Below, piece after piece: positions 1,563 through 16,282 of a stretch of DNA of 64,000 nt (position 1 is its first letter; each line of letters opens with the position of its first letter). Source of the stretch: Ruegeria arenilitoris (GTDB taxonomy: Bacteria > Pseudomonadota > Alphaproteobacteria > Rhodobacterales > Rhodobacteraceae); the NCBI RefSeq assembly GCF_013035425.1, contig NZ_WQHX01000002.1, positions 620,001-684,000 of the forward strand, written 5' to 3'. Both the position numbers and the translations under genes were made by a program. The notes under the pieces were generated by a model. The model made no database searches, was not told the origin of the DNA, and was given only the letters and a program-made list of their open reading frames with translations.

Positions 1563-1697
1563 AAAGACCGCGGCATTCTAAGCCATAAGCTCACTGACAG
1601 CGGTCAGATGCGGGTTTCGGGCCAGCTATGTTCCTTTGTCTTTTAATTAACTTTTACAACGAATCGACGCATAATGCACCACAGAGGGTATTTGATC

Positions 1698-3584
1698 ATG
1701 CGTGTTGATTATTACACGAGTAAACCATCCCCGCCACGATCGAGCTCTCAAAGCTCGATTATTGAGGGCGGTGGCGGTTTAGGATCATCTGTGCCGGGCA
1801 ATGGTGGATCAGACATATCCGCAGACGTGATTTCTGGTGAAAAGTGGCTGGCTGACGAAGCTGAGCGTCAATTGCTGTGCGTGAGCTTTGTTGACGTGGT
1901 CGGCTTCTCGGCCTTGATGCGTAAGGACGAGGAAAGCACATTTTTCAGGTGGGTCGACATGCGGCAGGAACTCGTGATGCCGCTTTTGAAAGAATTTGGA
2001 GGCAGCCTTGTCAAGTCGACCGGAGACGGGATTCTTGCCACATTCGATAACCCCGAGGCAGCCGTGCGTTGGGGGCAGGAATTACAGATCCAGGCGCGAC
2101 AACGACGTCAGGGGTTGGCTCTCAGGATTTCGCTAAATTACTGCCGGGTATTGCGAGACGGCCAAGATCTGCTGGGCGACGGTGTTAACGTGGCAGCAAG
2201 ACTGCAGGAACATGTGGCCGCTGGTGGGATAATTCTAACGCAATCTGTTCAAGACAACATCTCACACCTTAGCGAGATTCAAACGCGTCCTGTTGGCGAG
2301 CTGGAGCTGCGTAAAATGGGCGTCAAAGTCGCAGCCTTTGAACTCACGACTGATGGGCGGCACATGGTTGCCGAAGAACGCCAGTCTGGGCTGCCTTCAA
2401 TTGCGGTGCTACCCTTTACCAATATCAGCGGCAAACAAGAGGATGAATACTTCGCCTGGGGCATTGTCGAGGACATAGTAGCCCAACTTTCCCAGCATCA
2501 TGACCTTACAGTGATTGCCAGATCGTCGACCCTTTCATTCGCCCGACAAGCTGTAGATCCGCAGGTGGTTGGACGAACGCTTGGAGTTCGTTACCTGATC
2601 ATGGGCATGCTGCGTCGTCGGGACGGAAGGGTGCGCGTTTCCACAGAGCTTTTGGATACAGAGAACGGCCAGATACTGGCTGCATTGAAGCGGGATTTTG
2701 ACGAAATTGACACCTTCGGCGTACAGGATGAAATCGTCGAAACGACACTGATCAACCTTTTGCCTAAAATGCTTCAGGCCGAGCGCAGACGCACGATGCG
2801 AAAACGTCTGGCTTCGTTTTCGGCTTATGACATGTACCTGAAAGCACTGGACACTATTGGCAGCCTCGAATTCGAAACTTTCGAACAAGCAGGTGCCTTG
2901 TTAGAACGCGCGATTGAGGCGGACCCTGAGTTCCCTTCACCGTTGGCTTGGGCCGCGCGTTGGCACAGTCTGAAAGTCGGACAAGGTTGGTCCACTGATC
3001 CCAAAGGAGATTCCCGCAAGGCAGCTGATTTGGCGGCACGCGCCATTCGACTTGACCGTCAAAATGCACTTGCTCTGGCGACTTATGGGCATGTTCAATC
3101 ATACATGTTCGGGGATTTTGAAACGGCGATCGATTATTTGGATCGCGCGCGCGAAGCAAACCCCAGCAGTTCAATAGCTTGGTTGTTGTCCAGCGTAACA
3201 TTGTCCAGCATTGGCCGTAACGACGACGCAATCAAAGCAGCGGAGCGAGCATTAAGACTTTCGCCATTCGATCAAAGATTATTCGTTTATTACGCTTTTC
3301 TAGGCACGGTCTACTACGATGCCGGGGAATACGAAAAGGCCATTTCCTGGCTTCAACGGGGTTTGGCGGAAAACCCGCGTTACACCAGCGCTCTTAGAAC
3401 GCTTGTGGTTGCCCAAGTTGCGGCTGGAAAAGCGGGAGAGGCGCAAAAGAGCGCGGCGGACTTGATGAAGTTAGAGCCTGCCTTTTCCCTAGCCAAATAC
3501 AAAGAGACTCACAAACACTACAGCGACCCGGCAAAGTCGGTGTTGTTTTGCGAACGGTTGCGTCAGGCAGGGTTGCCTGACTAG
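1698..3584 (+). CDS. Class III nucleotide cyclase with TolB-like and TPR regions
   Basis: A 628-residue soluble protein. The N-terminal cyclase domain (roughly residues 55-215) has the first metal Asp in VSFVDVVGFS, the second in KSTGDGILATF with the adenine-type Lys just before it, and the Asn/Arg transition-state pair in GVNVAARLQ. A TolB-like N-terminal domain follows, starting at SIAVLPFTNISG, as in many alphaproteobacterial cyclase-TPR proteins. The C-terminal ~250 residues are alpha-helical TPR repeats ending in LAENPRYTSALRTL and similar. An upstream in-frame ATG exists at 1674, but AGAGGG sits well before the ATG at 1698. Expected product is cAMP, with the TPRs giving protein contacts. 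The haloperoxidase gene follows after 27 bp, probably in the same transcript. Confidence 0.85.
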   Translation: MRVDYYTSKPSPPRSSSQSSIIEGGGGLGSSVPGNGGSDISADVISGEKWLADEAERQLLCVSFVDVVGFSALMRKDEESTFFRWVDMRQELVMPLLKEFGGSLVKSTGDGILATFDNPEAAVRWGQELQIQARQRRQGLALRISLNYCRVLRDGQDLLGDGVNVAARLQEHVAAGGIILTQSVQDNISHLSEIQTRPVGELELRKMGVKVAAFELTTDGRHMVAEERQSGLPSIAVLPFTNISGKQEDEYFAWGIVEDIVAQLSQHHDLTVIARSSTLSFARQAVDPQVVGRTLGVRYLIMGMLRRRDGRVRVSTELLDTENGQILAALKRDFDEIDTFGVQDEIVETTLINLLPKMLQAERRRTMRKRLASFSAYDMYLKALDTIGSLEFETFEQAGALLERAIEADPEFPSPLAWAARWHSLKVGQGWSTDPKGDSRKAADLAARAIRLDRQNALALATYGHVQSYMFGDFETAIDYLDRAREANPSSSIAWLLSSVTLSSIGRNDDAIKAAERALRLSPFDQRLFVYYAFLGTVYYDAGEYEKAISWLQRGLAENPRYTSALRTLVVAQVAAGKAGEAQKSAADLMKLEPAFSLAKYKETHKHYSDPAKSVLFCERLRQAGLPD

Positions 3585-3611
3585 CAGTCGCCAACACAAG
3601 GGGAGAACGAT

Positions 3612-4694
3612 ATGACAGGACCGTCAGGCCCGATCAGTTCATTAGACGCCAGAGATGCGAGGGATGCACGCGACGCGCGGGATGCCAGGGATGCGCGGGA
3701 TGCCCGTGACGCCGGTTACGGCGGCAGTCCCGTTAATCTTAGTATCGGCATATCGCCGCACGCGGAACACGACGGTGTAGGTGGAATACCTGTCGAGGAC
3801 CGTTGGTGGCCCGGAAATCAATGGCCGCACACGCATCCGGTCGCAACTGGTGGCCTTGCTGATCCAGACCCGGTCCGTCTTCATGAAATCTATAGCTCTT
3901 TCAATACTGCAACTTTCAGAAGCTGGTCGCCCGGGAACAGGGCAATTGCCTTTCTGTCAGAATTCACCACGCAGGATTCAGATGGTGACAATGTTCCGGA
4001 TTGGCTGTCGCTTCTGCCACTGGGTGCTGTCCTTACAGAACCTGCACGCACAGGATCAAATGTATCAAATACAACAACGGTCGCTGCTGTTACATGGACA
4101 ATCGAAGAAGAACTGACCGAGCTTGTAGGCCTGATCGAGTATCGACCCGGTGTTCTGCAAGAGGCGTTGCAACAACGAGGCACTTTAATTGGGTATTTTC
4201 AGGGGATAATGCCTTTCAATTACCTGTCGCATCCCAACACCTTTCAACTTTGCCATATTGCACTAACTGTTGCACAGTTTTTGGCCTTTCACTTCAAAAT
4301 GAGATTTAACCGTCCCAGGCCATCGCAATTGCATCCGGCCCTTTTTCCGCCGATCGATGTTCCGCATCATTCAGCCTTCCCCAGCGCTCACGCAACCGAA
4401 GCCTGGCTTGTGGCCCTGTGTTTGGACACGGTCATGCTGGATAATTCGGGCAACAAAATCTTGCAGACGACCCATCCCGATGGCGTGGTCCGCAATGCGT
4501 TGGAAGACATGGCAAGCCGAATCTCTCGTAACCGAGAAGTACTTGGCGTTCACTATCCTTCTGACAGCCGCGCCGGGGAAGTACTGGCCCGAGCCGCGCT
4601 TCCGTTAATTCTGGCTTGCCCAACCGTCGGTACTATTGCCGGCGGTGGTTTGGCAGCGAGGGCCAGGGCAGAGTGGCAAAACGTTGGTATTTGA
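3612..4694 (+). CDS. Vanadium-dependent haloperoxidase / PAP2-superfamily protein
   Basis: A 360-residue protein whose C-terminal half carries the vanadate/phosphate-binding signature of the PAP2 superfamily: Lys229-x6-Arg236-Pro237, then PSAH with His260, then Arg308-x5-His314-x3-Asp318. The long helical region before it (residues ~85-230) resembles vanadium haloperoxidases rather than small PAP2 lipid phosphatases. Between residues 122 and 130 there is a DxDxDNxxD loop of the Ca-binding type. The N-terminus is unusual: residues 12-32 are seven consecutive Asp-Ala-Arg triplets. No signal peptide is visible. A GGGGAGAACGAT-type Shine-Dalgarno precedes the ATG. Haloperoxidases oxidise halides with hydrogen peroxide; halide preference cannot be read here, and an acid phosphatase activity is the main alternative. 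Confidence 0.78.
   Translation: MTGPSGPISSLDARDARDARDARDARDARDARDAGYGGSPVNLSIGISPHAEHDGVGGIPVEDRWWPGNQWPHTHPVATGGLADPDPVRLHEIYSSFNTATFRSWSPGNRAIAFLSEFTTQDSDGDNVPDWLSLLPLGAVLTEPARTGSNVSNTTTVAAVTWTIEEELTELVGLIEYRPGVLQEALQQRGTLIGYFQGIMPFNYLSHPNTFQLCHIALTVAQFLAFHFKMRFNRPRPSQLHPALFPPIDVPHHSAFPSAHATEAWLVALCLDTVMLDNSGNKILQTTHPDGVVRNALEDMASRISRNREVLGVHYPSDSRAGEVLARAALPLILACPTVGTIAGGGLAARARAEWQNVGI
3645..3707 (+). repeat. Seven tandem 9-bp units encoding Asp-Ala-Arg
   Basis: Seven consecutive 9-bp units encode (DAR)7 near the N-terminus of the haloperoxidase-like protein, followed by one DAG. Third positions differ between units (GAC/GAT, GCC/GCG/GCA, AGA/AGG/CGC/CGG/CGT), so this is not a fresh slippage product. 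The peptide is conserved while the codons have drifted, which suggests selection for the charged repeat. Confidence 0.9.
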
Positions 4695-4760: not shown

Positions 4761-6227
4761 TCAATTATTAATAATAATTGGACGAAATGCGATTACCGTC
4801 AAATCGTCGAGGCGGTTTTCGTCTTTGGTGTAGTTTTTAAATACTCGGTCGATGGCTTCTAAGAGGTCTGCCGAGCTCGACCAGTCTCCATGCTTCATCG
4901 TCGAAATCACCCTTTGAAATCCAAATGCCAGACGTTTTTCTCCACCCAATTGGTCGATCAATCCGTCTGTAGCAATCGCGAGAAACGTGTTTTCGTCGAA
5001 TTGGAAATTTTGTTCAGAAAGCTTTGGTGATTTTGGGGTGTCCATGTAGCCCAAACTCAATTTGTCTCCGCGCAACCGTTCCACTTTTTCCCCTTGTTTG
5101 ATCAACAACGACATATGTGCTCCGGAAAAGATCGCTGTTCCTTTGTTTACATCAATTTGGCAGATTGCAGCATCCATACCGTCGTTGGAGGTCGCACCAG
5201 ATTGGTCTTGGTTCAACAACGTTCTGGTCAAATCGCTCAGTTTAGAAAGTGCCGATGAGGGGCTGAGTGTGCCATCTTCAAAATACAGTCGCTCAAGAAT
5301 TCCGATCGCCAGCATTGTCATGAAACCGCCCGGAACACCGTGTCCCGTACAATCAATAACGGCGAGTGTAGAAATTGGTCCGTCCTTTCTCAGCCAATAG
5401 ATGTCGCCGCCGACCAAATCGCGGGGCTCCCATTTGACCGCAAAATCCGAAAAAGCTGTCTTGCACTGTTTAGTTGTCGGCAAAAGGCTCTGCTGGATTC
5501 GCGTGGCGTAATTCACGCTTTCAACAATTTGGTGATGAGCTTCCCTTATCGCAGAGACGCGCTCGACTTCACGGTCCAACATCGAGTTGTAGCTTTGAAC
5601 AACTTTGCCAATCTCGTCCTCGGATCGATATGTAACCCGCTGAGGATCGTCGTACAGTTCAAACTTCTCAATCGCGCTTAACATTTGACGAAGAGGTCTG
5701 TTGATAAGCCACAAAAACGCTGCCGCACCTGCAAGGACCAGTGCAAATCCCCCAAGAACGCCCAAAAGGACCACCACGCCAACTTCTGTTCGCAATTCCC
5801 TGTTGAGAATTTCCTGGTCTATTCGCGCCAACATAACGGCTGGTCCTGCTGCCGTTGGCACGGAAACGGATATATCCAAACCAGTTTTTTTAATCTTTTC
5901 GCACCCGATGGCGGGCCACGATACAAGTGTTTCCGGGTTTTGCTCCAGCCGTTGTTCAGCGCATATCAAATAGGGAAACCCAGAATAAACTGCTAACAGG
6001 CTTTGAGCCTGTGCCTGATTTCCTGCCATTACAAGTTCTGCCAATGGGCGCGCAATACGATTAGCTATTGTGGCCATTTCAGCGGCAACTTGATCAGTCT
6101 GCGCTTGTCTTTTGAATTCATAGTAGAATAGGAGCACTACGGCATTTAGCGCGCCTCCGATCACGAGGGTCGCCAGAATGTGCTTCAAAAATATTCGGCG
6201 CGTTAAAAAGTCCCAGACGTTACGCAC
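4761..6227 (-). CDS. siaA: SiaA-like membrane PP2C/SpoIIE serine phosphatase with HAMP
   Basis: A 488-residue sensor phosphatase. A transmembrane helix at about residues 16-38 and a second at about 148-175 bracket a ~110-residue periplasmic sensing domain. HAMP follows (~176-230), then a linker containing ESVNYATRIQQSLLP, typical of SiaA-type proteins. The C-terminal PP2C/SpoIIE domain has metal-binding motifs DLVGGDIYW, DCTGHGVPGGFM and ATDGLIDQLGG. In Pseudomonas, SiaA dephosphorylates SiaC so that SiaC can activate its cyclase partner; the same role is inferred here. The start is GTG with AGGGG upstream. The gene lies 25 bp after the small periplasmic protein gene and diverges from siaB/siaC/cyclase. 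Gene symbol is by analogy. Confidence 0.82.
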   Translation of the reverse strand: MRNVWDFLTRRIFLKHILATLVIGGALNAVVLLFYYEFKRQAQTDQVAAEMATIANRIARPLAELVMAGNQAQAQSLLAVYSGFPYLICAEQRLEQNPETLVSWPAIGCEKIKKTGLDISVSVPTAAGPAVMLARIDQEILNRELRTEVGVVVLLGVLGGFALVLAGAAAFLWLINRPLRQMLSAIEKFELYDDPQRVTYRSEDEIGKVVQSYNSMLDREVERVSAIREAHHQIVESVNYATRIQQSLLPTTKQCKTAFSDFAVKWEPRDLVGGDIYWLRKDGPISTLAVIDCTGHGVPGGFMTMLAIGILERLYFEDGTLSPSSALSKLSDLTRTLLNQDQSGATSNDGMDAAICQIDVNKGTAIFSGAHMSLLIKQGEKVERLRGDKLSLGYMDTPKSPKLSEQNFQFDENTFLAIATDGLIDQLGGEKRLAFGFQRVISTMKHGDWSSSADLLEAIDRVFKNYTKDENRLDDLTVIAFRPIIINN

Positions 6228-6252
6228 TGAACGCCCCTACTTCTTCAGGCAT

Positions 6253-6630
6253 CTAGTTCCCGATTTTCTTCATTGCGGACTGCAGGGCCGCCCGGTTGTT
6301 GACTATCATCTGCACGACTTTGTAGTCCCCGGAAATTTCGCGTACGAGAAAGTCTGCCGTTACCGTATCTCCGCCTTCCGTTATCATTTCTGAACAGACG
6401 AAATAGTCACCTCCGGCTGGGATAACCATTGGGTGAACATTTGCTGGATAAACAGTCGCAATCTCGTTGGTGGTAGTATCCAGATAAGTATAAGCACCAT
6501 CAACCATTACTCCGTCGACATGTGCAATCATGGCAGATTGAAGCTTTGCTTTTACTTCCGTTGGTATATCGGCGGCGAGGACCGGGCCAGAAATCAATAC
6601 GCCGGTAACCCACGATAATATCCTGATCAT
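6253..6630 (-). CDS. Small predicted periplasmic protein of the Sia locus
   Basis: A 125-residue protein starting at the ATG preceded by GGGGAGGTAGAT; a longer reading frame upstream lacks such a site. The N-terminal stretch MIRILSWVTGVLISGPVLAA is a clear signal peptide with an AxA-like cleavage region. The mature part is ~105 residues, acidic, and ends in a Lys-rich helix. I recognise no family with certainty. It is co-directional with the SiaA-like phosphatase 25 bp downstream, whose sensing domain faces the periplasm, so it may be a ligand-binding partner of that sensor. That role is an inference from position and predicted location only. Confidence 0.65.
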   Translation of the reverse strand: MIRILSWVTGVLISGPVLAADIPTEVKAKLQSAMIAHVDGVMVDGAYTYLDTTTNEIATVYPANVHPMVIPAGGDYFVCSEMITEGGDTVTADFLVREISGDYKVVQMIVNNRAALQSAMKKIGN

Positions 6631-6661
6631 ATCTACCTCCCCAATCAATTCTAAGCGCAAT

Positions 6662-6692
6662 TGATACACTAAAAATGCACAAATGTGTATCA
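6662..6692. promoter_or_regulatory. Candidate operator: perfect 8-bp inverted repeat in divergent promoter
   Basis: TGATACAC at 6662-6669 and its exact complement GTGTATCA at 6685-6692 are separated by 15 bp. The dyad occupies most of the 81-bp space between the divergent periplasmic-protein/siaA-like and siaB-like genes, where a regulator could control both directions. No adjacent gene encodes an obvious repressor. Confidence 0.45.
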
Positions 6693-6711
6693 TGTGATAT
6701 TAAGGCTTGAA

Positions 6712-7305
6712 ATGAACTTGGTTCTTTTCGTGCGCGATCAAGGGGAACAAATGCTTGCCAACGAAGTTTACGAGCTGCGCGCCAGTCTACGCAAACAAGG
6801 TGTTGTTTTTGCCTACAGTGGCTATGTGACCGAAGGTATTCTCAGCGGCGTTGGCGACGCATTGAAACAAAAACTGGTTTCCGAAGACGCGGACACAAAA
6901 ACCCTTCGCAGTGTCTTCGCGGTTTTCGTCGAACAAATGCAAAATATTATACGATATTCCGTTGAACGGTTGCCCGCCGACACGGATTCAGATGGGTTGG
7001 ACATAAGTTATGGCATCCTGACCATTGGGAACGAAGCCGGCAGTTATGTGGTTCATGCCGGAAACCTGATCCTTTCGAGCGATGTAGAAAACATGCAAAG
7101 CCGACTGTCAGCTTTGCGAAAAATGAACCGAGAAGAACTTAAAGCAGCCTACAAAGACCAACTTCGTTCAGAACCCGATACTGTCAGCAAAGGTGCAGGC
7201 ATAGGGCTGATTGAAATTGCGCGCAGAGCATCAAAACCAATTGAGTTCGACTTTATGCGAGTTGATGATCAACACGCATTTTTTGCACTTAAAGCTACAG
7301 TTTAA
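6712..7305 (+). CDS. siaB: SiaB-family protein kinase
   Basis: A 197-residue soluble protein with GHKL-type features of the SiaB family (DUF6272-like). An N-box-like helix FVEQMQNIIRYSVE lies at about residues 80-93 and a glycine-rich loop GAGIGLIEIARRASKPIEF near residue 165. The start at 6712 follows TAAGG; an earlier in-frame ATG lies inside the inverted repeat and is less likely. In Pseudomonas SiaB phosphorylates SiaC and thereby blocks it from activating the cyclase, opposing SiaA. The siaC-like gene begins 10 bp after the stop codon, so the two are almost certainly co-transcribed. Family assignment is from recognised motifs and from gene order; kinase activity is inferred. Confidence 0.8.
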   Translation: MNLVLFVRDQGEQMLANEVYELRASLRKQGVVFAYSGYVTEGILSGVGDALKQKLVSEDADTKTLRSVFAVFVEQMQNIIRYSVERLPADTDSDGLDISYGILTIGNEAGSYVVHAGNLILSSDVENMQSRLSALRKMNREELKAAYKDQLRSEPDTVSKGAGIGLIEIARRASKPIEFDFMRVDDQHAFFALKATV

Positions 7306-7315
7306 GAGGGGACTT

Positions 7316-7705
7316 ATGGAAAAAATTGAGATCCCCGCCACAAACCGTACACCGACAGTCGAATTTGACTTTGACTCAGGTCGCTTGAAGCTAATCGGAG
7401 AATCCTATCCCGAAGATGTTACCACGTTCTACAACCCGTTGTTTCAAGCCCTGAAAGAATGGTTATCGGGTGACGCAAGTTCTAAATGTCGGTTTGATTT
7501 TGAGCTCATCTATTTCAATTCGTCGAGCGCAAAAGCCATAATGATGATAATGGAACTCTTGGACTCAGCGGCCGAAAAGGGAAAAGAAATAGAGGTTTTC
7601 TGGTTTCACGATCCAGAAGATGAAACCATGGAAGAGCTTGGGGAAGAGTTTGGTGAGGATCTTCAGCACGCCAAGTTCACGTTAAAAAAGTTGTCGGATA
7701 GATGA
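7316..7705 (+). CDS. siaC: SiaC-like regulatory protein (DUF1987)
   Basis: A 129-residue protein close to the usual length of SiaC. The core IYFNSSSAKAIMMIMELL followed by FHDPEDETMEELGEEFGEDL is the DUF1987 hallmark. Ser69-Ser71 fall where Pseudomonas SiaC carries its phosphorylated Thr68, so a serine is the likely switch site here. The start at 7316 follows AGAGGGGACTT; the longer in-frame extension overlaps siaB and has no such site. Its stop codon overlaps the cyclase start in ATGA, giving translational coupling and implying a fixed ratio with that cyclase. Predicted role: when dephosphorylated by the SiaA-like phosphatase it binds and activates the cyclase; when phosphorylated by SiaB it does not. 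Confidence 0.85.
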   Translation: MEKIEIPATNRTPTVEFDFDSGRLKLIGESYPEDVTTFYNPLFQALKEWLSGDASSKCRFDFELIYFNSSSAKAIMMIMELLDSAAEKGKEIEVFWFHDPEDETMEELGEEFGEDLQHAKFTLKKLSDR

Positions 7706-8760
7706 CACTCGACGATCTATTTTCTCGGGAACAACAGGTTCTCGAGAGCGCCGAATCTGCCTTGGACAGCGGAAAGTTCCCTAGTGACGAGACACGAGAT
7801 CCAATTCGACGGCTCGTCGTGGAATACCGAAAACTGTTAAAAACCACGCGGCGCATGATGCGATTGAGTGATCGCAACGAACGGGAGCTGAATGCCTTGG
7901 CAGAAAAGCAGCGTATCGCTGCAGAGGAAATCTCGCGTAAAAACAACGAACTTGAGGCCTTATCGGGCAAACTCGCAAAGTATCTCTCCCCCCAGGTATA
8001 TAATTCTATCTTTTCCGGTCGTCAGGAGGTGAAACTTGCGAGCCAAAGGAAAAAACTAACCGTGTTTTTCTCCGACGTAGCGGGGTTTACAGAGCTTACT
8101 GATCAGTTGGAGTCCGAAGACCTAACTCAACTTCTGAACAGTTATCTAACAGAGATGGCGCAAGTCGCGCTGCAACATGGCGCCACCATTGACAAGTTTA
8201 TCGGTGACGCCATCCTAATCTTTTTCGGTGATCCCGAAACAAAAGGGGTGCGCGAAGATGCGTTGGCCTGTGTACGCATGGCGATCGCGATGCGGGACAA
8301 GTTGGCTGAATTGCAGGTCGAATGGAAACGCCAAGGAATAAGACAAGAATTGCAATGCCGAATTGGCATCAACACAGGCTACTGTACTGTCGGAAATTTT
8401 GGCAGCGAAGACCGAATGGATTACACCATTATTGGCGGAGCGGTGAATATCGCTTCTCGGCTTGAACATCAGGCCGATGAGGGAGAAATATTTATCTCTT
8501 ACGAGACTTGGGCACACATAAAAGACGAAATCAGTACCGAAGAGGTGGGACCGATACAGGTAAAAGGTGTTACGCAGCCCGTCATGACCTACCGCGTTTT
8601 AGGTCAAAAAGGGGCACCCACTCTTTCTACAAAAGTCCGATGCGACAAGCCGAATTTTCAATTGGTCTTGGACCCAGCAGCCATGTCGCCAGAAGAGCGT
8701 GCTGAAAGTACCAGTATCTTACAATCCGCTCTTACGTCATTGCGCAACTTTGATTCATAA
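7702..8760 (+). CDS. Class III nucleotide cyclase, predicted output of the Sia switch
   Basis: A 352-residue soluble protein. Residues 1-95 form a long helical stalk with RRMMRLSDRNERELNAL, similar in style to the coiled-coil stalk that precedes GGDEF in SiaD-type proteins. The cyclase domain (~115-300) has metal Asp125 in FFSDVAGFT and Asp169 in IGDAILIFF. Adenine-type Lys165 and Asp240/Thr242 in DYTIIGG, and Asn249/Arg253 in VNIASRLE, are all present. All residues expected of an active adenylate cyclase are therefore seen. The ATG overlaps the siaC-like stop (ATGA). Product cAMP is inferred; cGMP is possible. No GGDEF gene is present in the locus. Convergent with the prepilin peptidase gene 132 bp on. 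Confidence 0.88.
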   Translation: MTLDDLFSREQQVLESAESALDSGKFPSDETRDPIRRLVVEYRKLLKTTRRMMRLSDRNERELNALAEKQRIAAEEISRKNNELEALSGKLAKYLSPQVYNSIFSGRQEVKLASQRKKLTVFFSDVAGFTELTDQLESEDLTQLLNSYLTEMAQVALQHGATIDKFIGDAILIFFGDPETKGVREDALACVRMAIAMRDKLAELQVEWKRQGIRQELQCRIGINTGYCTVGNFGSEDRMDYTIIGGAVNIASRLEHQADEGEIFISYETWAHIKDEISTEEVGPIQVKGVTQPVMTYRVLGQKGAPTLSTKVRCDKPNFQLVLDPAAMSPEERAESTSILQSALTSLRNFDS

Positions 8761-8892: not shown

Positions 8893-9378
8893 CTACGCAG
8901 CAAGCATCAACGAAGCAAAAGGCAACAGAATACCGGCCATAGCTATTGATACCCCCATCGGATAACCCGCTTTTGGACGCAATGCGCTCCAAACGCACTG
9001 CGGCAAGACAAGAAAGCGACAAGAAACAACAACGAACATGCCGATACCCATCGAAGCAGCAAAGCAAAAGAAAAATAATAACAGGCTATAGCTCGGTACG
9101 AAGAGCACCAATGCGGCAATTGCCTTTACGTCTCCCCCTCCCCAAAGGCGAAACGCAAAACCAGCGAAGCCAAGGAAGAACACGGCGACCGCAAAAAGAA
9201 TTCGATATGAAATCTCTTGCCACGTAAGAAAGAATGGCGCCGAAAGCAAGAAAACTGCGATCATCGCAAGCACCAGAAAATTTGAGATCTTTAGGAACTT
9301 CAAATCGTGCAATGCCATAATGATCAATAAAGGCGCGATCAATATCAGTGGCCCCAACTGAACGAACTCAGGCGACAT
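8893..9378 (-). CDS. tadV: Prepilin peptidase of the Tad pilus (A24 family)
   Basis: A 161-residue membrane protein with about five hydrophobic helices. The two catalytic aspartates of type IV prepilin peptidases are visible: Asp25 in ALHDLKFLKISN and Asp83 in GGGDVKAIAAL. It is the short TadV/CpaA form without the N-methyltransferase domain. It should cleave the Flp pilin and the TadE/F-type pseudopilins encoded upstream. AGGAGG precedes the ATG. The gene overlaps the end of the LuxR gene by 11 bp, so the two are probably co-expressed, at the downstream end of the tad locus. Confidence 0.85.
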   Translation of the reverse strand: MSPEFVQLGPLILIAPLLIIMALHDLKFLKISNFLVLAMIAVFLLSAPFFLTWQEISYRILFAVAVFFLGFAGFAFRLWGGGDVKAIAALVLFVPSYSLLLFFFCFAASMGIGMFVVVSCRFLVLPQCVWSALRPKAGYPMGVSIAMAGILLPFASLMLAA

Positions 9379-10234
9379 ACGCGCCTCCTGCCGATGCTGG
9401 CTTGGGATTCACAATCGGAGTAAGCAAGTCGTGAATTAGTTCCGTTTGTGAAGACGTTCCGGTCTTAATGTAGATATTGCGCAAATGTGTACGAAGGGTC
9501 GAAATCGAGATCGAGAGCTCGGAAAGCAACGCGTTGTTGTTCAACCCCCGAGCCAATAGCAGACAGACCCTATATTCAGCTCTGCTCAATCTGCACGGAT
9601 TTTCCATGGACAAAATCTCTTTGACATCCGTACGCACAGATTTTCTACGCGCGTTCACAAGCTGTGTTTCAGAGAATCTGCCAAGAGACCTTTTTTTCCA
9701 GCAGTCCGAAAGAACTGGGCCCATAAGCGTCAAGGCGTTCGCTAAAGCCGAAGAAATAGGACGGCAAAAATGCAATTCCAAAAAGTCCGATACTCCATTC
9801 TGCCTTTCGAGCAATATGGACACTGACTCTGACAATCGGCGGTTTTTATAAAGTTCGGACAGACGAGCGTGATCAGCAAAATCGTTCATTGATCCGAACC
9901 ACGCCGATCCCGACTTGGCGCGTTTCATATTCACCCCGCAGACGGCTGGCGCTACGCAGAAATCAAAACTTCCCGAGGAGCTGGGCCGCTGATGTCTGAC
10001 ATCGGCGCTGAGCACCTTTGCAGAACCTTTTTCGCAGGACAGATCAACGCGACTAATTGAGATAACATCTGCCCCAATCGCCAGGGCTGTTTCACGCAGT
10101 GCGTTTAACAGTGGAACTTTCCCTTGCGAAGCCTGACACAGGACAGCGACAACCTTTAGCAATTCTGGTGTAGGAGCCACCGCAGCTGACGCAGAATTAT
10201 GCGCCGAAAACATAACACTCATACCATTTACCAT
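9368..10234 (-). CDS. LuxR-type transcriptional regulator
   Basis: A 288-residue protein with a C-terminal LuxR/GerE helix-turn-helix (about residues 215-275): LSRAEYRVCLLLARGLNNNA then ISISTLRTHLRNIYIKTG, ending in a short tail. The first ~200 residues give no autoinducer-binding or receiver motif that I can name, and the phospho-acceptor pattern of REC is absent. It sits between the tad genes and the prepilin peptidase, overlapping the latter by 11 bp, so pilus regulation is a reasonable inference. The start used here lies one base from a perfect 15-bp palindrome, so a Shine-Dalgarno is lacking; ATG at 10222 is an alternative start. Confidence 0.8.
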   Translation of the reverse strand: MVNGMSVMFSAHNSASAAVAPTPELLKVVAVLCQASQGKVPLLNALRETALAIGADVISISRVDLSCEKGSAKVLSADVRHQRPSSSGSFDFCVAPAVCGVNMKRAKSGSAWFGSMNDFADHARLSELYKNRRLSESVSILLERQNGVSDFLELHFCRPISSALANALTLMGPVLSDCWKKRSLGRFSETQLVNARRKSVRTDVKEILSMENPCRLSRAEYRVCLLLARGLNNNALLSELSISISTLRTHLRNIYIKTGTSSQTELIHDLLTPIVNPKPASAGGAYVA

Positions 10235-10235
10235 C

Positions 10236-10250
10236 GGTCAAACTTTGACC
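10236..10250. promoter_or_regulatory. Perfect 15-bp palindrome at the LuxR gene start
   Basis: GGTCAAA, one central base, then TTTGACC: a perfect 7-bp dyad directly abutting the predicted start codon of the LuxR-type regulator. Its position over the ribosome-binding region or promoter suggests an autoregulatory operator. Confidence 0.5.
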
Positions 10251-10450
10251 AACACCTTTCGACAGACGCCCCCACCCGTCGATATGTCTCGGTTTTTTTT
10301 GTGTGGCCGGACTCCACATATTCACAAAATTAACTTTGAACTAATCTCCGTACCTGCGCAAAAAGTGGAAGAAGAAGACCTTCTTTTGTTCACAAAATTG
10401 GCAACATAGGTGCACTGAAGGGCCTATTGTAGCGCGGTTGGGGTCGAATA

Positions 10451-11452
10451 CTACGCCCCAAAGCCGCGGAAGTATCGAATCATAGAAGGCGCCGCCGTGA
10501 TAATTATCAACGTGGGCAGCATCAGCGCCGCCAATACAGCCGACATTTTCACGGGCAGCTGGTTAGCCAATTCCTGCGCTCTGGTCTCACGCCAGTCTCT
10601 CATTTCCGAGGCATAAGTAGTCAAAGCCTCTGACATACTGGTTCCGTAACGCATGGATTGCTGCACAACGGTCGCAAATGACCGGATCTCGTCGATGCCA
10701 GTGCGTTTTGCCATGTCAGACAGCGCTTCTGCGCGTGGTCGCCCAGCCTGGATTTCGTGTTGTGTGTTCAAAAACTCAAAGGCGAGGTCCGGTGAGGCAA
10801 CGGCCAACTCATTTCCTACACGTGTCATCGCAGCATCAAAACCAAGTCCGGCTTGCAGCGATATCTGCAGCAGATCGAGCGCATTTGGAAAAGCGTCACG
10901 AATCTTTTGTTGGCGTTCTTTTTGACGTCGGTTCAACCAGAAAGCCGGAAGAAAATAACCGACTGCCGTCAGCAACCCGATAAGCTGGATCGCATTCGCT
11001 TTGCTAATGGATTCAAATGTTCCTGCAATCGACCTTGGGAAAGGAATTCCCGGTGTTTTTGACGCGACTATCAGCAAGGCTACGATCATAGGAACGAAAA
11101 TACCCAGCCAAACACGTGTCAGCGTGTAGATACGTAGTGTATTTGGACCAGTCAGGCCCGCCTGGAGCAGCTTTTCTTCGATCTTGCGCCGCTCGGACTG
11201 TCTGCTTGGAAGCGCCGCTTTGAAAAGGCCCTTGGGGGTGGCAACTGTTTCGCGCAACAGACCGCGATCATTGCGTGAATCGAACCTTTGGGCACGCAGG
11301 TTAGCAATGCGGACTGCTGCAGGGTGGCGTCGGCTCAGGGCCGAACTCACCGCAAAGAAAACCAGCAACACGCCCAGCCCAAAAATTGTAAGCAATATAG
11401 TTTCGGTAGGAAGTCCGAAACGCAGCGATATCATTTCCAAAATACGATCCAT
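10451..11452 (-). CDS. tadC: Tad pilus inner-membrane platform protein TadC
   Basis: A 333-residue T2SF-type membrane protein. An N-terminal helix (about 15-38), a second pair of helices around 110-180, a cytoplasmic T2SF domain containing LQISLQAGLGFDAAMTRVG and MRYGTSMSEAL, and a C-terminal membrane segment LAALMLPTLIIITAAPSMI fit TadC. It pairs with TadB to form the platform on which the TadA ATPase assembles Flp. The ATG follows GAGGACAG. It lies 10 bp downstream of tadB in the same direction and is the last structural tad gene before the LuxR gene; no tadD follows. Confidence 0.9.
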   Translation of the reverse strand: MDRILEMISLRFGLPTETILLTIFGLGVLLVFFAVSSALSRRHPAAVRIANLRAQRFDSRNDRGLLRETVATPKGLFKAALPSRQSERRKIEEKLLQAGLTGPNTLRIYTLTRVWLGIFVPMIVALLIVASKTPGIPFPRSIAGTFESISKANAIQLIGLLTAVGYFLPAFWLNRRQKERQQKIRDAFPNALDLLQISLQAGLGFDAAMTRVGNELAVASPDLAFEFLNTQHEIQAGRPRAEALSDMAKRTGIDEIRSFATVVQQSMRYGTSMSEALTTYASEMRDWRETRAQELANQLPVKMSAVLAALMLPTLIIITAAPSMIRYFRGFGA

Positions 11453-11462
11453 GGAACTGTCC

Positions 11463-12434
11463 TCAAATCCGAAAGTTAACGAGTCTGTAAAGGATGATGA
11501 CGTTAGAGATCATCAAAACGACGACCAAAATGGCGAGTTTGATGAACGCCGGGTCGTCGCTGACGTCGGTGTAGTATCCCGGCGCATTGATTGACATCAG
11601 TCCCATGATCACCAACGGGATGATCGAAAGAAGAACTCCGGACAAACGTCCTTCGGCCGAGATTGCTTTGATCCGGGCGCGCAATGCGATCCGTCTTCTG
11701 ATCACGTTGGCCAAGACGGAAACGATCCGTTCAAGATCACCACCGGTTCCATGCTGGATTGCCATACTGGCGGCCAGATATTGCGCGTCTTCGGAACCTA
11801 CACGGTCTGCAAAATCTTGAACGGCATCGGTCAATTCGTCACCGAAACTGATCTGATCGAAGATGATCCCAAATTCTGACCCGATGGGATCTTGCATCTC
11901 ATCCGCGACGGCCTTGATCGACGTATTAACCGGATGACCGATCCTAAGACCCCGCGCCATCAGTTCCAATGCATCGGGCAACTGACCCGTCAGCAACTTT
12001 TGGCGCTCTGCCTGACGCGATTTGACAATCAACGCGGGCACGACTGCACCCAAGAGGAACGCAATCGGAACAGCCTGCCAAGCAGGAAGGAAAAAGACGC
12101 CGGCAACGGCCGCCGCTGCTGTTCCCATTGCTGACAGCAGCAGAAAGTTCTGCGGGGATATATTCACTCCCGCTTGCAAAAGCGTTTCTGGCAGCTTTCC
12201 AAAAAACGGAACCCGTGCCCAAATGCCCGTCTGGTTATCTGGAAGCAAGATTGAAAGGCGCTCTTCATCTGAAACGCCCTGCTGAACCATGCGCAGACGG
12301 CGATTTCTGGCCTCAGCTCGGTTTTCTCCACGCTTGGCAAAGTGGGTCAACCCGGTTACCAGCATGAATATTCCGACGAAGACGCATGCCAGCGTCAGAT
12401 AATTCAGCAATTCGGCGGTATATACGCTGTCCAT
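11463..12434 (-). CDS. tadB: Tad pilus inner-membrane platform protein TadB
   Basis: A 323-residue T2SF-domain membrane protein with an N-terminal helix, a paired hydrophobic region around residues 100-140, the cytoplasmic T2SF part with LMARGLRIGHPVNTSIKAV and ASMAIQHGTGGDLERIVSVL, and C-terminal helices GVLLSIIPLVIMGLMS and LAILVVVLMISNVIILY. The length and gene order are as expected for TadB, between TadA and TadC. It is separated from tadA by 3 bp and has GAGGG before its ATG, so coupling with the ATPase gene is likely. Confidence 0.92.
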   Translation of the reverse strand: MDSVYTAELLNYLTLACVFVGIFMLVTGLTHFAKRGENRAEARNRRLRMVQQGVSDEERLSILLPDNQTGIWARVPFFGKLPETLLQAGVNISPQNFLLLSAMGTAAAAVAGVFFLPAWQAVPIAFLLGAVVPALIVKSRQAERQKLLTGQLPDALELMARGLRIGHPVNTSIKAVADEMQDPIGSEFGIIFDQISFGDELTDAVQDFADRVGSEDAQYLAASMAIQHGTGGDLERIVSVLANVIRRRIALRARIKAISAEGRLSGVLLSIIPLVIMGLMSINAPGYYTDVSDDPAFIKLAILVVVLMISNVIILYRLVNFRI

Positions 12435-12437
12435 GGC

Positions 12438-13826
12438 TTACCCTCTCGATACACGGAAAGTTTCTGGCGCAAGATCGACACCGGCGGATGTAAGGAAATC
12501 AAAGCACTTTGGACGAATTCCCGTAGGAACAAATTGTCCGATGACCTCTCCACTTTCCGAACGGCCCTTTTTCTGGAAAACGAAAATGTCTTGCATAGTG
12601 ACAATCTCGCCTTCCATTCCCGTAATTTCCGAGATGCTGGTAACGCGACGTGATCCATCCGCCAGTCGCGACAGGTGCACGATAAAGTGCAAACCCGATG
12701 CGATTTGTGATCGAATGGCCGAAGCAGGGAATTCTATTCCGGTCATGGTAACCATTTGCTCCAAGCGACCCAAAGAATCTCGCGCTGAGTTTGCATGCAC
12801 GGTCGTCATGGAACCATCGTGGCCAGTGTTCATTGCCTGGAGCATGTCAAAGGTTTCAGCGCCGCGAACCTCACCCACGATAATTCTGTCTGGACGCATA
12901 CGCAGTGCGTTGCGCACTAAGTCACGCTGAATGACTTGGCCGTCGCCATTCGGCGATGGCGGGCGCGTCTCCAAACGCACGACATGGTCTTGCTGGAGTT
13001 GCAGTTCTGCCGCGTCTTCAATCGTGACGACACGTTCACCGTGGTCAATATATGAAGACAGCGCGTTCAGCATGGTCGTTTTCCCCGACCCTGTACCGCC
13101 CGCAATCAAAACGTTCAGTCGTGCATATACCAGGGATTGAAGGAAACGCGCCGCCGCTTCGTTCAGCGCTCCACTTTCCACAAGTTTTTCCATCGTCAGT
13201 TTCGACTTGGCAAACTTTCGAATGGATACGCTTGGACCGTCGATCGAACAAGGGCGGATGATAGCGTTGACACGGCTGCCATCTTCCAGACGAGCGTCCA
13301 CCCAAGGCTGGCGTTCGTCGACGCGGCGGCCGATCTTGCTGACAATCTTGTCGATCACACGCAACAAATGTTTTTCGTCGCGGAAACGGACAGGTACTCT
13401 TTCAAGCAAACCAGAACGCTCGACGTACACGGTTTGATATCCATTTACGAGAATATCGTTGATCGTCGGATCAGCCAAAAGCGGTTCAAGGGGACCGAAG
13501 CCCAGAATTTCATCCAAAAGCTCATCAACGATTCGATTGAAATCGTCGGTGTTAAGCGGACGGCCGGTCTGAGAAAGGGCACTACTGACAACACCGGCAA
13601 CTTCGCGGCGCAACACATCATTTTCAACTTTTTCAATGACCGAAAGGTTCAACCTTTCAAGCAATGCCTCGTGCAGAGTGCTTTTTAGTTCCAGCCATTC
13701 AGCCAATTCTTTTTCTTCAACGGCCATCTCTTCCAACATCTCCTGAGATTTTTGCTCAGCGTGTTGATTCAGATGAATAACTTCGGCCTCATCGGTGCGT
13801 CCGGCGCGTGTAAACTTTTCAAACAT
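12438..13826 (-). CDS. tadA: Tad pilus assembly ATPase TadA (CpaF)
   Basis: A 462-residue secretion ATPase of the CpaF/VirB11 class. The Walker A motif GGTGSGKTT is at residues 243-251, an Asp box in VVTIEDAAELQ follows, and a Walker B-like RIIVGEVRG and His box TTVHANSARDSL complete the set. The N-terminal 110 residues are the helical region typical of CpaF. It powers polymerisation of the Flp pilin through the TadB/TadC platform. The ATG follows GGAGTC. It lies 14 bp after tadZ and 3 bp before tadB within the operon. Confidence 0.95.
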   Translation of the reverse strand: MFEKFTRAGRTDEAEVIHLNQHAEQKSQEMLEEMAVEEKELAEWLELKSTLHEALLERLNLSVIEKVENDVLRREVAGVVSSALSQTGRPLNTDDFNRIVDELLDEILGFGPLEPLLADPTINDILVNGYQTVYVERSGLLERVPVRFRDEKHLLRVIDKIVSKIGRRVDERQPWVDARLEDGSRVNAIIRPCSIDGPSVSIRKFAKSKLTMEKLVESGALNEAAARFLQSLVYARLNVLIAGGTGSGKTTMLNALSSYIDHGERVVTIEDAAELQLQQDHVVRLETRPPSPNGDGQVIQRDLVRNALRMRPDRIIVGEVRGAETFDMLQAMNTGHDGSMTTVHANSARDSLGRLEQMVTMTGIEFPASAIRSQIASGLHFIVHLSRLADGSRRVTSISEITGMEGEIVTMQDIFVFQKKGRSESGEVIGQFVPTGIRPKCFDFLTSAGVDLAPETFRVSRG

Positions 13827-13840
13827 CTCATAGACTCCAA

Positions 13841-15049
13841 TCAGGCAGCTTTGTTTCTCTGGTCGTTACTTCCGACCTCTGTTTCACTCATTATTTTGTG
13901 ACCCATCGTGCGGATCGATTTGGACAGGGCGCAGCTTTTGGCTGTCTGCGACAGCAGTTCGCCCCGGTCCAATGATTGCTTTGCGTGGCGCTCGTCGTTC
14001 GGCAGCCAGAATTTCAGATCGCGGCCCAATGCTTTTTGGGCTTCGATGTGGTGACTGGACCGAAAGGTCGGCTTCCTTTCCCGGCTGAACACGATCTCGA
14101 CCGGAGGCTCCAAGCGTTCCTTGGCAAAAAAGTCAATCAGACGGCAGGCTTGGCGAACCGAAGAAACCGAGCTGTCACTGACCATCAACATCCGATCAGA
14201 AGCGTTGACTACAGCACCAACCCAATCAACCAAAACACGCGGCAGATCGACGACGACATAATCAAATTCCATGCGCAAAGTCTCGATCAGTGCAGCGATT
14301 TGCTCACGGGTCAGAACGTCCAAAGGCATGAAGCTTTCGGGTGCGCTAAGCACTTCCAAACCGGATGAATGTTGCACCATCGATTGTTGAATAAATGTCC
14401 GATCCGGCGTCACACCTTGCTGAGCCATTGTCATAAGCCCGGAGGAGGGTTGCAGATCCAACGCCGTTGCAATTGTTCCGAATTGCAGATCCAGATCGAC
14501 AACAGCAACTTTGTTTTTGGTCGTTTTTCTGAAAAAGCCTGAATGTCCCTGCAACTGATCCGCCAAGTTTATCGCGAGGGTCGAGGCACCAATACCTCCG
14601 CGCGCGGGGCAAACGCTGATGACATGCCCCAAACGATGCATCTGCGGATTATAGATCGCTGGTAGCAAGGACTTGTCCAACGTGAGGCGCTGAATCTGTT
14701 CGGTCAGCTCGTCTTGTGCTATCGGAAAGGGCAAGATTTCGTCTACGCCCAATTTGTTGAGCGCGCGGGCTTCTGACAGCGTAATGTCGCGATCGCTAAG
14801 GGCGAGAATTGTGCCGCCAGGGCCCGCGCTGCGACGCAGATCGCTGACGACGTCCACATCCAGCTCTTCTGGTAGGCTGAAAACCAACAGATCATTGTCA
14901 CACAGCAACTGGCTTGCGTGTCCGTTGACCGACGACAACGTACCGGAAAGCGTCTCCAGCGAATGATCATCTAATCGGTCAACCGCGCGGGCGACAGAAC
15001 TTTGTATCGCCTCGTTGTCTGAAATCAGGGCTAATGATTTGTGGGTCAT
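13841..15049 (-). CDS. cpaE: Tad pilus localisation protein TadZ/CpaE
   Basis: A 402-residue protein. The N-terminal ~130 residues form an atypical receiver-like domain (SLALISDNEAIQSSVARAVD) without the usual phosphorylation pocket. The C-terminal ParA/MinD-like ATPase carries a deviant Walker A RGGIGASTLA and a later DLDLQFGTIATALDL, as in TadZ proteins that mark the pole for pilus assembly. The start at 15049 has AGGAGC upstream; the longer frame beginning at 15157 would overlap the TadE gene and lacks support. It lies between the pseudopilin genes and tadA. Confidence 0.9.
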   Translation of the reverse strand: MTHKSLALISDNEAIQSSVARAVDRLDDHSLETLSGTLSSVNGHASQLLCDNDLLVFSLPEELDVDVVSDLRRSAGPGGTILALSDRDITLSEARALNKLGVDEILPFPIAQDELTEQIQRLTLDKSLLPAIYNPQMHRLGHVISVCPARGGIGASTLAINLADQLQGHSGFFRKTTKNKVAVVDLDLQFGTIATALDLQPSSGLMTMAQQGVTPDRTFIQQSMVQHSSGLEVLSAPESFMPLDVLTREQIAALIETLRMEFDYVVVDLPRVLVDWVGAVVNASDRMLMVSDSSVSSVRQACRLIDFFAKERLEPPVEIVFSRERKPTFRSSHHIEAQKALGRDLKFWLPNDERHAKQSLDRGELLSQTAKSCALSKSIRTMGHKIMSETEVGSNDQRNKAA

Positions 15050-15074
15050 TGTACAGCTCCTATGGCTAGAACAT

Positions 15075-15770
15075 TCAACCGCTGGTTCCCGAGGCGAGGT
15101 CTTCGCCTGGAAGCGTTGCGCTGAAATCGGAAAAGATCTTGAAGCCCGTGGTGGCATTCGTCAGATCATCGGTTTGCGGCGTTGCCCCACCAATCGCCAA
15201 AGCAGCAAGCGCTCCTAGTGGGGATACAAAACGGAACGGAAGCTCTTCGATGGTCACGGTGACCATCGGCACATAGGGGCCGCCAAGAAAATTCATTTGC
15301 GGGTCGAATTCGTATGCAAACGTAATGTTGCTTTCATCAAAGGTTGCAGTTGGATCGTTGGGAACGGCAAACTGCAGCATGTTCCAAATACCGTCGACTG
15401 TGTCTTGCGCCGCGGCATTTGGCGGATTCGCGCCGGTACAAATTGTTGCAGCCGGTTCCACACAAACGCCGGATGCAAAGTCGCAATTCGTCCCAAAACG
15501 CGGACCAGTTATGTCTGTGTAACCACCCCTGCTGTTGGTTATTGGAACGCCTCCGCAGGCCGCGGGCAACACCGCGGCCATGCGGGCAGCGACCTGCGCT
15601 GTTTTTTCCGCGGCCACGTAATGAAATGCCAATCGGCCAAAATCTATCAGACCCAAGAAGATAAGAAGGAAAATCGGCATGACAAACGCCATTTCGACAA
15701 TGGTCGAACCATCTTCTTTACGGAAAAATCGTGACAATTCACGGGTTATGCTGTGAATGCGGCGGTTCAT
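15075..15770 (-). CDS. tadE: TadE-like pseudopilin
   Basis: A 231-residue protein with a type IV prepilin-like N-terminus: a short basic leader, then GSTIVEMAFVMPIFLLIFLG with the conserved Glu after the processing Gly, and one hydrophobic helix. A Cys-containing periplasmic domain follows (ACGGVP, NCDFASGVC, TICTG). TadE and TadF are minor pseudopilins needed for Flp assembly. Its ATG overlaps the stop of the upstream TadE-type gene (ATGA), and it is 25 bp before tadZ. Confidence 0.85.
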   Translation of the reverse strand: MNRRIHSITRELSRFFRKEDGSTIVEMAFVMPIFLLIFLGLIDFGRLAFHYVAAEKTAQVAARMAAVLPAACGGVPITNSRGGYTDITGPRFGTNCDFASGVCVEPAATICTGANPPNAAAQDTVDGIWNMLQFAVPNDPTATFDESNITFAYEFDPQMNFLGGPYVPMVTVTIEELPFRFVSPLGALAALAIGGATPQTDDLTNATTGFKIFSDFSATLPGEDLASGTSG

Positions 15771-16282
15771 GGTCCAAACACCCGGCTGCGGTCAGTTACA
15801 GTGGTCTGGATCTGAGTCATCCCCGCACCGCCTACAAGTTGGAACAACGGCGCAAAGGGCAGATCCGAAATTGTTAGTGATGCGGAAAGTACTGCCACCG
15901 GAGTTGGAGAAACCCGATATTCTCCAGCGGCTCCTACACATTCCAGGGACAGATCGTCTAACCCAATGGTGATATTTGTGGTTGAAAGAGACGTTAGCGT
16001 GGTCGCTACGGATGCCTGAAAGTCTCCGATCGAGGCACTTGGTGAAGCAGAGCACAAGTCCGCCGGAGCAATCCGCCCAACGTAACGTGCAGTGTCGCGA
16101 ACACCAGTGATCGCGTTCTGATACGACCAGAACAACCGGCCACCTTCGGCTATCAGGGCGAAGGTCGCCAACATGATCGGAAGCAGGATCGCGAATTCTA
16201 CTAAGGCAGCGCCTGCCTCATCTCTGCGAAAGCGGCGGATCACTCTTTGAATATGTTGAGACAAACCAGACATGACCCTCAC
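15767..16282 (-). CDS. Second TadE/TadF-like pseudopilin
   Basis: A 171-residue protein with a prepilin-like segment: basic region RFRRDEAGAALVEFAILLP with the processing Gly and Glu, and a single helix LPIMLATFALIAEGGRLFW. The remainder is periplasmic and includes two cysteines (DLCSAS, LECVG). It is the TadE-domain partner of the following gene, likely TadF in function. The start is ambiguous: a GTG at 16282 overlaps the previous stop in GTGA, and an ATG at 16273 lies nine bases later. The 3' end overlaps the next gene by 4 bp. Confidence 0.82.
   Translation of the reverse strand: MRVMSGLSQHIQRVIRRFRRDEAGAALVEFAILLPIMLATFALIAEGGRLFWSYQNAITGVRDTARYVGRIAPADLCSASPSASIGDFQASVATTLTSLSTTNITIGLDDLSLECVGAAGEYRVSPTPVAVLSASLTISDLPFAPLFQLVGGAGMTQIQTTVTDRSRVFGP

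Follow-up and report, generated by a model that had tools for sequence, protein, structure and literature searches.

SiaABCD of Pseudomonas aeruginosa comprises the PP2C phosphatase SiaA, the kinase SiaB, SiaC and the diguanylate cyclase SiaD and acts on the biofilm signal cyclic di-GMP (c-di-GMP). It has been named as a merger of partner switching with c-di-GMP signalling (PMC9239204). In this system unphosphorylated SiaC activates SiaD and converts it from a pentamer to a dimer, and SiaD and SiaC bind with about 50 nM by isothermal titration calorimetry (PMC8457831). In the crystal structure 7E6G, SiaC grips SiaD by the segment R80-I-S-D-R-Y-Q86; the residues that are gripped are R74, K77, V78, R80, I81, S82, D83, R84, Y85, Q86, M88, R90 and D91, and a second, similar SiaC site is present upstream (PMC8457831). 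The authors suggest that adjacent proteins are the ones that DUF1987 (SiaC) proteins modulate, and they leave the reason for having a separate activator open (PMC8457831). They also name the pairs HsbA-HsbD and BgrV-BgrR, where a nucleotide cyclase is likewise controlled by a partner protein, which is however of the STAS type rather than of the SiaC family and acts on a GGDEF output (PMC8457831). Here, we analysed a sia-like locus of Ruegeria arenilitoris in a stretch of 64,000 nucleotides (contig NZ_WQHX01000002.1, positions 620,001 to 684,000; in the following, the window), in which the gene next to siaC encodes a class III nucleotide cyclase with an N-terminal stalk.

We conclude that the locus is probably a SiaA-SiaB-SiaC partner switch with a class III adenylate cyclase as its output, where unphosphorylated SiaC would clamp the stalk and thereby turn on the synthesis of cyclic AMP (cAMP). 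As a SiaABC switch with an output other than SiaD, it would be one case of a wider class. The features of the locus are listed here with their window positions (E, expect value; ORF, open reading frame).

4761-6227, minus strand: siaA-like PP2C phosphatase gene, 488 amino acids (Pfam SpoIIE, E 3.8e-19; HAMP, E 1e-8)
6253 to about 6630, minus strand, in an ORF that reaches 6693: gene of a small protein whose N-terminus resembles a signal peptide (by eye), the next gene upstream of siaA
6685 (ORF opening) to 7305, with the ATG at 6712, plus strand: siaB-like SiaC kinase gene (DUF6272, E 2.4e-44)
7316-7705, plus strand: siaC, 129 amino acids (PF09345, E 1e-40; 138.5 bits against a cut-off of 24.5)
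7702-8760, plus strand: class III cyclase gene, 352 amino acids, with the N-terminal stalk (PF00211, Guanylate_cyc, E 3.1e-29)
7852-7881, plus strand: core SiaC-docking motif R51-M-M-R-L-S-D-R-N-E60 of the cyclase, aligned with K77-Q86 of SiaD

A sequence-only reading of this DNA had described a siaA-like gene diverging from siaB-like, siaC-like and cyclase genes, and Pfam and NCBIfam place all four as it did. The siaC stop and the cyclase start overlap in ATGA at 7702-7705, again as described there. Its gene inventory was incomplete, since the small gene between siaA and siaB had been overlooked. Compared with SiaABCD of P. aeruginosa, the locus has the same SiaA, SiaB and SiaC families, the SiaC phosphosite, most of the interface, a docking motif on a long N-terminal stalk helix and an output gene that adjoins siaC. 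In contrast to SiaABCD, the output belongs to PF00211 and not to the GGDEF family of SiaD, each chain has one docking copy instead of two, siaA is divergently oriented, shorter and accompanied by the gene of the small exported-looking protein, and a serine replaces T68 of SiaC.

The comparison with SiaD is based on the docking motif, which lies on the stalk of the output protein in both systems. The aligned residue pairs of the cyclase and SiaD are R51/K77, R54/R80, S56/S82, D57/D83, R58/R84 and E60/Q86. In an alignment of 51 rows D57, R58, N59 and E60 were invariant. Among 120 homologues listed from 8000 scored, 101 matched the motif pattern and 18 of the 19 others had the SDRNE core; P0029, also among the 120, has no stalk. 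A stalk profile, A6, consisted of 24 rows (7 cyclase, 9 GGDEF, 3 kinase and 5 HD-GYP). Among the PDB sequences it matched SiaD (7e6g) best, with E 1.2e-12, in two stretches that correspond to the two known SiaC sites. The full cyclase profile, applied to the first 15 siaC loci, also matched two kinases (E 5.9e-10 and 1.3e-8) and seven GGDEF proteins (E 4.4e-9 to 2.3e-4); in the cases displayed the match fell in the stalk. As traced by these profiles, the link from the cyclase to SiaD runs through the GGDEF stalks of siaC loci. The window cyclase has a single docking copy, as does each of the 39 cyclase rows (three of them duplicate loci), and two copies were found in 6 of 29 GGDEF rows.

The docking stalk and siaC occur together. 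In a motif scan of one genome per species, 84,980 species yielded 42 stretches, and 29 loci were confirmed. Of the loci with a name, the nearest belong to the Roseobacteraceae, genus Ruegeria. The siaC gene was directly upstream of the stalk gene in 27 of the 29 loci, which is therefore more than a chance arrangement. Within the 29, the reading frame is broken for siaC in L079 and for the cyclase in L095. In L082 the stalk belongs to a kinase; siaA comes next, then siaB, of which the stretch covers the start before it ends, and no siaC was seen in this stretch. In L086 no siaC was found within the 408 upstream bases. Among 385 genomes of the class, PF09345 scored over its cut-off in 13, and the stalk profile matched 14, the same 13 and G208. 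The stalk was thus found in 13 of 13 genomes with siaC and in 1 of 372 others; scoring was limited to 15 first-look candidates in each genome, so that absence is not exhaustive. That the two surveys covered the same 385 genomes is judged from the handles listed; seven of the 13 siaC genomes had supplied rows to the profile and the other six matched independently. As a control, no stalk match at E up to 10 was obtained in 490 ORFs from 29 loci without siaC; these ORFs included the host's four GGDEF genes and 26 matches to class III cyclases.

The host genome (4.79 Mb, 26 contigs) has one siaC and one stalk. A SiaD-type GGDEF gene elsewhere in this genome had been named in advance as a finding that would contradict a cyclase output; a search gave four GGDEF matches, none of them with a stalk. 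In 292 genomes of the order the only convincing stalk was that of the host, and in 149 genomes of the family siaC was present in two, including the host. The Sia module is therefore accessory in these groups. One further, weak stalk match (G734, E 1.9e-4) was taken as chance, since by eye its ORF is unlike a protein and lies between dehydrogenase-like and aconitase-like frames. At the level of sequence, the earlier proposal of a cyclase driven by the Sia switch is supported by the SiaC-binding motif, its co-occurrence with siaC and the lack of a stalk in the 26 other class III cyclase matches.

The SiaC protein of the window matches the solved SiaC chain 6kko/7e6g (E 1.2e-20). Its putative phosphosite is S69, which corresponds to T68 of P. 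aeruginosa SiaC and lies within N68-S69-S70, and the contact residues are kept or conserved at Y66, N68, S69, S70, M76, E80, L108, E111 and D115. Both sides of the interface were compared in 91 paired SiaC-stalk loci (35 cyclase, 29 GGDEF, 22 HD-GYP and 5 kinase), using the numbering of SiaD and P. aeruginosa SiaC. On the stalk D83 was conserved in 91, S82 in 87 and R84 in 84 of the 91. On SiaC, Y65, N67 and Ser/Thr at 68 were conserved in all 91, and residue 110 was always Glu or Asp. The peripheral contacts differ among these loci.

The cyclase consists of the stalk and a single catalytic domain, whose nearest solved relative is the P. aeruginosa CyaB domain 3r5g (E 2.3e-72, residues 111-301), a solved fragment of 198 residues that has no Sia stalk. 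D125, D169, K165, D240, N249 and R253 are invariant in the 51-row alignment, in agreement with the sequence-only reading that all catalytic residues are retained. We take D125 and D169 to be the metal-binding aspartates, K165 and D240 the adenine-selecting residues and N249 and R253 the transition-state residues. With these residues the enzyme is predicted to convert ATP to cAMP. A single-chain AlphaFold2 model from the same alignment had a mean predicted local distance difference test score (pLDDT) of 79.9 and a predicted template modelling score (pTM) of 0.57, and showed helices at 8-22 and 29-94 followed by the cyclase fold. The stalk helix 29-94 has 66 residues, with block pLDDT values of 82-89 up to residue 80 and 56-65 beyond. 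This helix and the docking motif aligned to SiaD bear out the earlier statement that the stalk resembles that of SiaD. The host genome contains 58 class III cyclase-like stretches, among which the window cyclase alone aligns from before position 59 of the model. For one genome, 58 such stretches seem many. One of them is nearby: the protein encoded at 1674-3584 of the window (plus strand) also resembles a class III cyclase, and it has TPR repeats but no stalk.

The switch could work as follows. In response to a presumed signal, the kinase SiaB and the membrane phosphatase SiaA, the latter perhaps aided by the small exported protein, would determine whether S69 of SiaC is phosphorylated. In its unphosphorylated form SiaC would lie with its alpha2/alpha3 face on the cyclase stalk near R51, R54, S56, D57, R58 and E60, with one site per chain and a presumed 2:2 stoichiometry. 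Its binding would fix a parallel two-stranded stalk in register and unite the two catalytic domains, so that cAMP is made. Phosphorylated SiaC would be unable to bind, leaving the cyclase off. Activation rather than inhibition is assumed here by analogy with SiaD.

To see which enzymes stand beside siaC, 90 siaC loci were compared, 89 from family, class and phylum searches and the window; the partial matches G649, G586 and G317 were dropped. The next gene on the same strand had the stalk in 65 of the 90 and encoded a GGDEF protein in 28, an HD-GYP protein in 21, a class III cyclase in 12 and a histidine kinase in 4. The label HD-GYP stands for a Pfam HD_5 match, mostly with GAF. No recognised stalk gene was next door in the remaining 25; in five of these (L112, L129, L155, L158 and L172) a stalk gene was elsewhere in the locus or excluded by the overlap rule. 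Several of the genomes share a genus and the locus counts are not independent; counted by genus, the stalk outputs were GGDEF in 19, HD-GYP in 10, cyclase in 9 and histidine kinase in 5. The output profiles were built from the same loci that they label, and the output counts rest on them and on Pfam checks of 18 output proteins, which confirmed representatives of every output class. A survey of cyclase against GGDEF neighbours had been proposed as a check, and both indeed occur beside siaC. The idea of a cyclase in place of a diguanylate cyclase was correct for the output itself and too narrow in its wording, since HD-GYP and histidine kinase outputs are found as well.

Output types were then placed on a tree of SiaB and SiaC with 91 rows, made by a quick method. 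Its rows were loci that have both siaB and siaC and a stalk output of assigned type; two repeated rows were merged and L098, a copy of L088, was dropped. The output type requires 14 changes on this tree, compared to a minimum of 3, and therefore the outputs were swapped more than once. The cyclase label alone requires 11, with at least 5 changes forced by well supported branches, and the window sits in a clade of 17 rows that are all cyclases. In two loci, L083 (1413-7017) and L097 (1518-7017), the stretch read has only one siaB-siaC pair, with three stalk outputs around it, an HD-GYP protein, a histidine kinase and a cyclase, and Pfam agreed for the two L083 genes that were checked. One SiaC may drive three enzymes there. 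In L174 (2763-4460, minus strand) the stalk cyclase beside siaC carries a C-terminal PilZ domain, which would join c-di-GMP sensing to cAMP output.

The distance between the docking residue, a serine in nearly all cases, and a conserved anchor was measured in 97 of 99 stalk genes (102 minus 3 duplicate loci; 2 are truncated and were not measured). The anchors were the metal aspartate in cyclases, DxLT in GGDEF proteins, the H-box histidine in kinases and the Arg-Thr just before GAF in HD-GYP proteins. In the cyclases the spacing was 69 (17 genes), 62 (13, one with the anchor masked to X) or 55 (2), values whole heptads apart that account for 32 of 36 cyclases. GGDEF proteins had 21 (11), 28 (10), 35 (3) or 49 (5), HD-GYP proteins 42 (20) or 35 (4), and kinases 23 (4) or 44 (2), with 53 in two kinases of a different lineage. 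Within each main lineage the spacings agree modulo 7. A control distance inside the GGDEF domain showed no such agreement (76, 71, 77, 74 and one outlier). For 11 distinct lengths in four lineages, the probability of chance agreement is 7^-7 if the lengths are free, for a rule that was noticed after the fact. The rule fails if the minority lineages (cyclases at 66 and kinases at 53) are pooled; both were set aside on sequence grounds. The heptad spacing fits a continuous coiled coil that would carry the docking state in a fixed phase.

We are inclined to view the SiaC-docking stalk as an adaptor that is portable: a helix about 65 residues long, placed whole heptads before the catalytic domain, by which enzymes of at least four classes come under the control of one Ser/Thr partner switch and whose outputs were swapped repeatedly. 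By their domains the four would be diguanylate cyclases, HD-GYP c-di-GMP phosphodiesterases, class III cyclases and histidine kinases. The S-helix of sensor kinases and receptor cyclases is reportedly a helix of about 40 residues that lies between the input part of a protein and its output part. The window helix likewise precedes an output domain, and differs by bearing a docking motif that is tied to a separate phosphoprotein. If true, Ser/Thr partner switching would be joined to cAMP signalling by a defined, portable docking helix, which would hint at the role of SiaC (DUF1987) proteins where no SiaD exists. A shared plug-in stalk would also be a concrete answer to why a separate activator is used, and the motif and the heptad rule could predict SiaC targets from sequence and guide the design of chimeric cyclases. 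None of the titles and abstract openings searched described a class III cyclase, an HD-GYP protein or a kinase linked to SiaC; subscription papers and preprints lie outside this search. Within that literature, the term DUF1987 was found in a single paper.

Several observations weigh against a SiaC-driven cyclase of this kind. No stalk gene is present in the stretch read of 20 of the 90 siaC loci. In one of these, L140, an HD-GYP gene next to siaC (2534-3934, minus strand) has the divergent motif RQERIMARSDKRQ that the profile missed, and the stalk counts are therefore low estimates. G317 has a siaC fragment under the cut-off, the 14th match among the class genomes, and no stalk match. Two of the 24 rows of A6 (L125 and L132) are SiaD-like with two motif copies. 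When the stalk profile is limited to cyclases, SiaD is not among its PDB matches at E up to 10, and a profile without the GGDEF rows ranks it 9th with E 0.61, behind designed coiled coils and others. On SiaC the interface is changed from R103 to T104, I71 to A72 and Q10 to N10 with respect to P. aeruginosa, and the stalk positions R74, Y85, M88, R90 and D91 of SiaD differ as well. The mean covariation of the contact pairs exceeded all 100 of 100 within-type shuffles, and random pair sets were as high in 766 of 5000 cases. A spacing of 66, which is not a whole heptad from 69, occurs in four cyclases of a different lineage.

The sign of the effect might also be the opposite, with SiaC docking to the stalk and keeping the catalytic domains apart until its phosphorylation by SiaB frees the cyclase. 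Only the docking site is conserved and no sequence feature sets the sign, and with one docking copy in the cyclase and two in P. aeruginosa-like SiaD, an activation from pentamer to dimer need not apply. However, class III cyclases act as dimers, so a clamp on the stalk should help them, and in the single solved system unphosphorylated SiaC activates (PMC8457831). We regard inhibition as unlikely. Quite improbable, in our view, is that the stalk is a general dimerising signalling helix with the target of SiaC elsewhere and the cyclase merely co-transcribed. Many kinases and receptor cyclases reportedly have signalling helices, and G208, a genome with no siaC match, has a similar motif (RHFRKIAKISDGLQ) on an apparent histidine kinase (by eye; L204, 1486-2448, plus strand), which also counts against SiaC as the partner; this Sia-like kinase belongs either to a lost switch or to another partner. 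Against a general helix stand the 490 control ORFs without a stalk, the restriction of the stalk to siaC genomes in the class with G208 as the one other case, the match of the stalk profile to both SiaC sites of SiaD and the lack of a second stalk in the host. As to the product, the Pfam family spans adenylate and guanylate cyclases, and the same switch could make cyclic GMP or both nucleotides. Since the adenine-selecting K165 and D240 are invariant and CyaB is the nearest solved relative, we give this very little weight. A SiaC-activated adenylate cyclase remains our preferred reading of the locus.

The best NCBIfam match of the siaA-like protein is SiaA with 198.9 bits, under the cut-off of 700, and it is shorter than the 658-position SiaA model. 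The motifs GGD273, DCTGHG292, DGMD349, TDGL420 and DDLT474, which we take to be the catalytic motifs of PP2C phosphatases, are all there. Together with the SpoIIE and HAMP domains they mark a membrane PP2C phosphatase of the SiaA type, with two membrane helices, assigned by eye, flanking an outside region. The siaB-like protein scored 199.5 bits with the NCBIfam model SiaB_fam_kinase (cut-off 85), giving a SiaB kinase beside siaC. Since the P. aeruginosa equivalog models NF038263, NF038264 and NF038265 all score under their cut-offs here, the Sia proteins of the window are best treated as family members and not as demonstrated orthologues. The small protein at 6253-6630 had no Pfam match at E 0.01. 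Its homologues adjoin siaA in 12 other loci (two are copies of the same contig), and in all 12 the output is a cyclase. This exported-looking protein is a candidate co-sensor of SiaA.

A natural fusion of SiaC and cyclase was looked for with a joined query, which gave three proteins, each a single sequence on one contig, and none was accepted as a real fusion. P0123 (477 amino acids, both domains) is out of frame from within the SiaC end ('MQGTRRGVWRG'), P0122 continues from SiaC into the stalk before it leaves the frame, and P0121 joins SiaB to SiaC. We claim no functional link to Tad pilus genes, as no Tad, LuxR, PAP2 or S8 neighbour recurs beside Sia loci at E 1e-6 in the relatives' stretches of about 3 to 12 kb. 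In the window, Tad/Flp pilus genes (prepilin peptidase, T2SSF, T2SSE and TadE) lie directly downstream of the cyclase at 8893-16282 on the minus strand.

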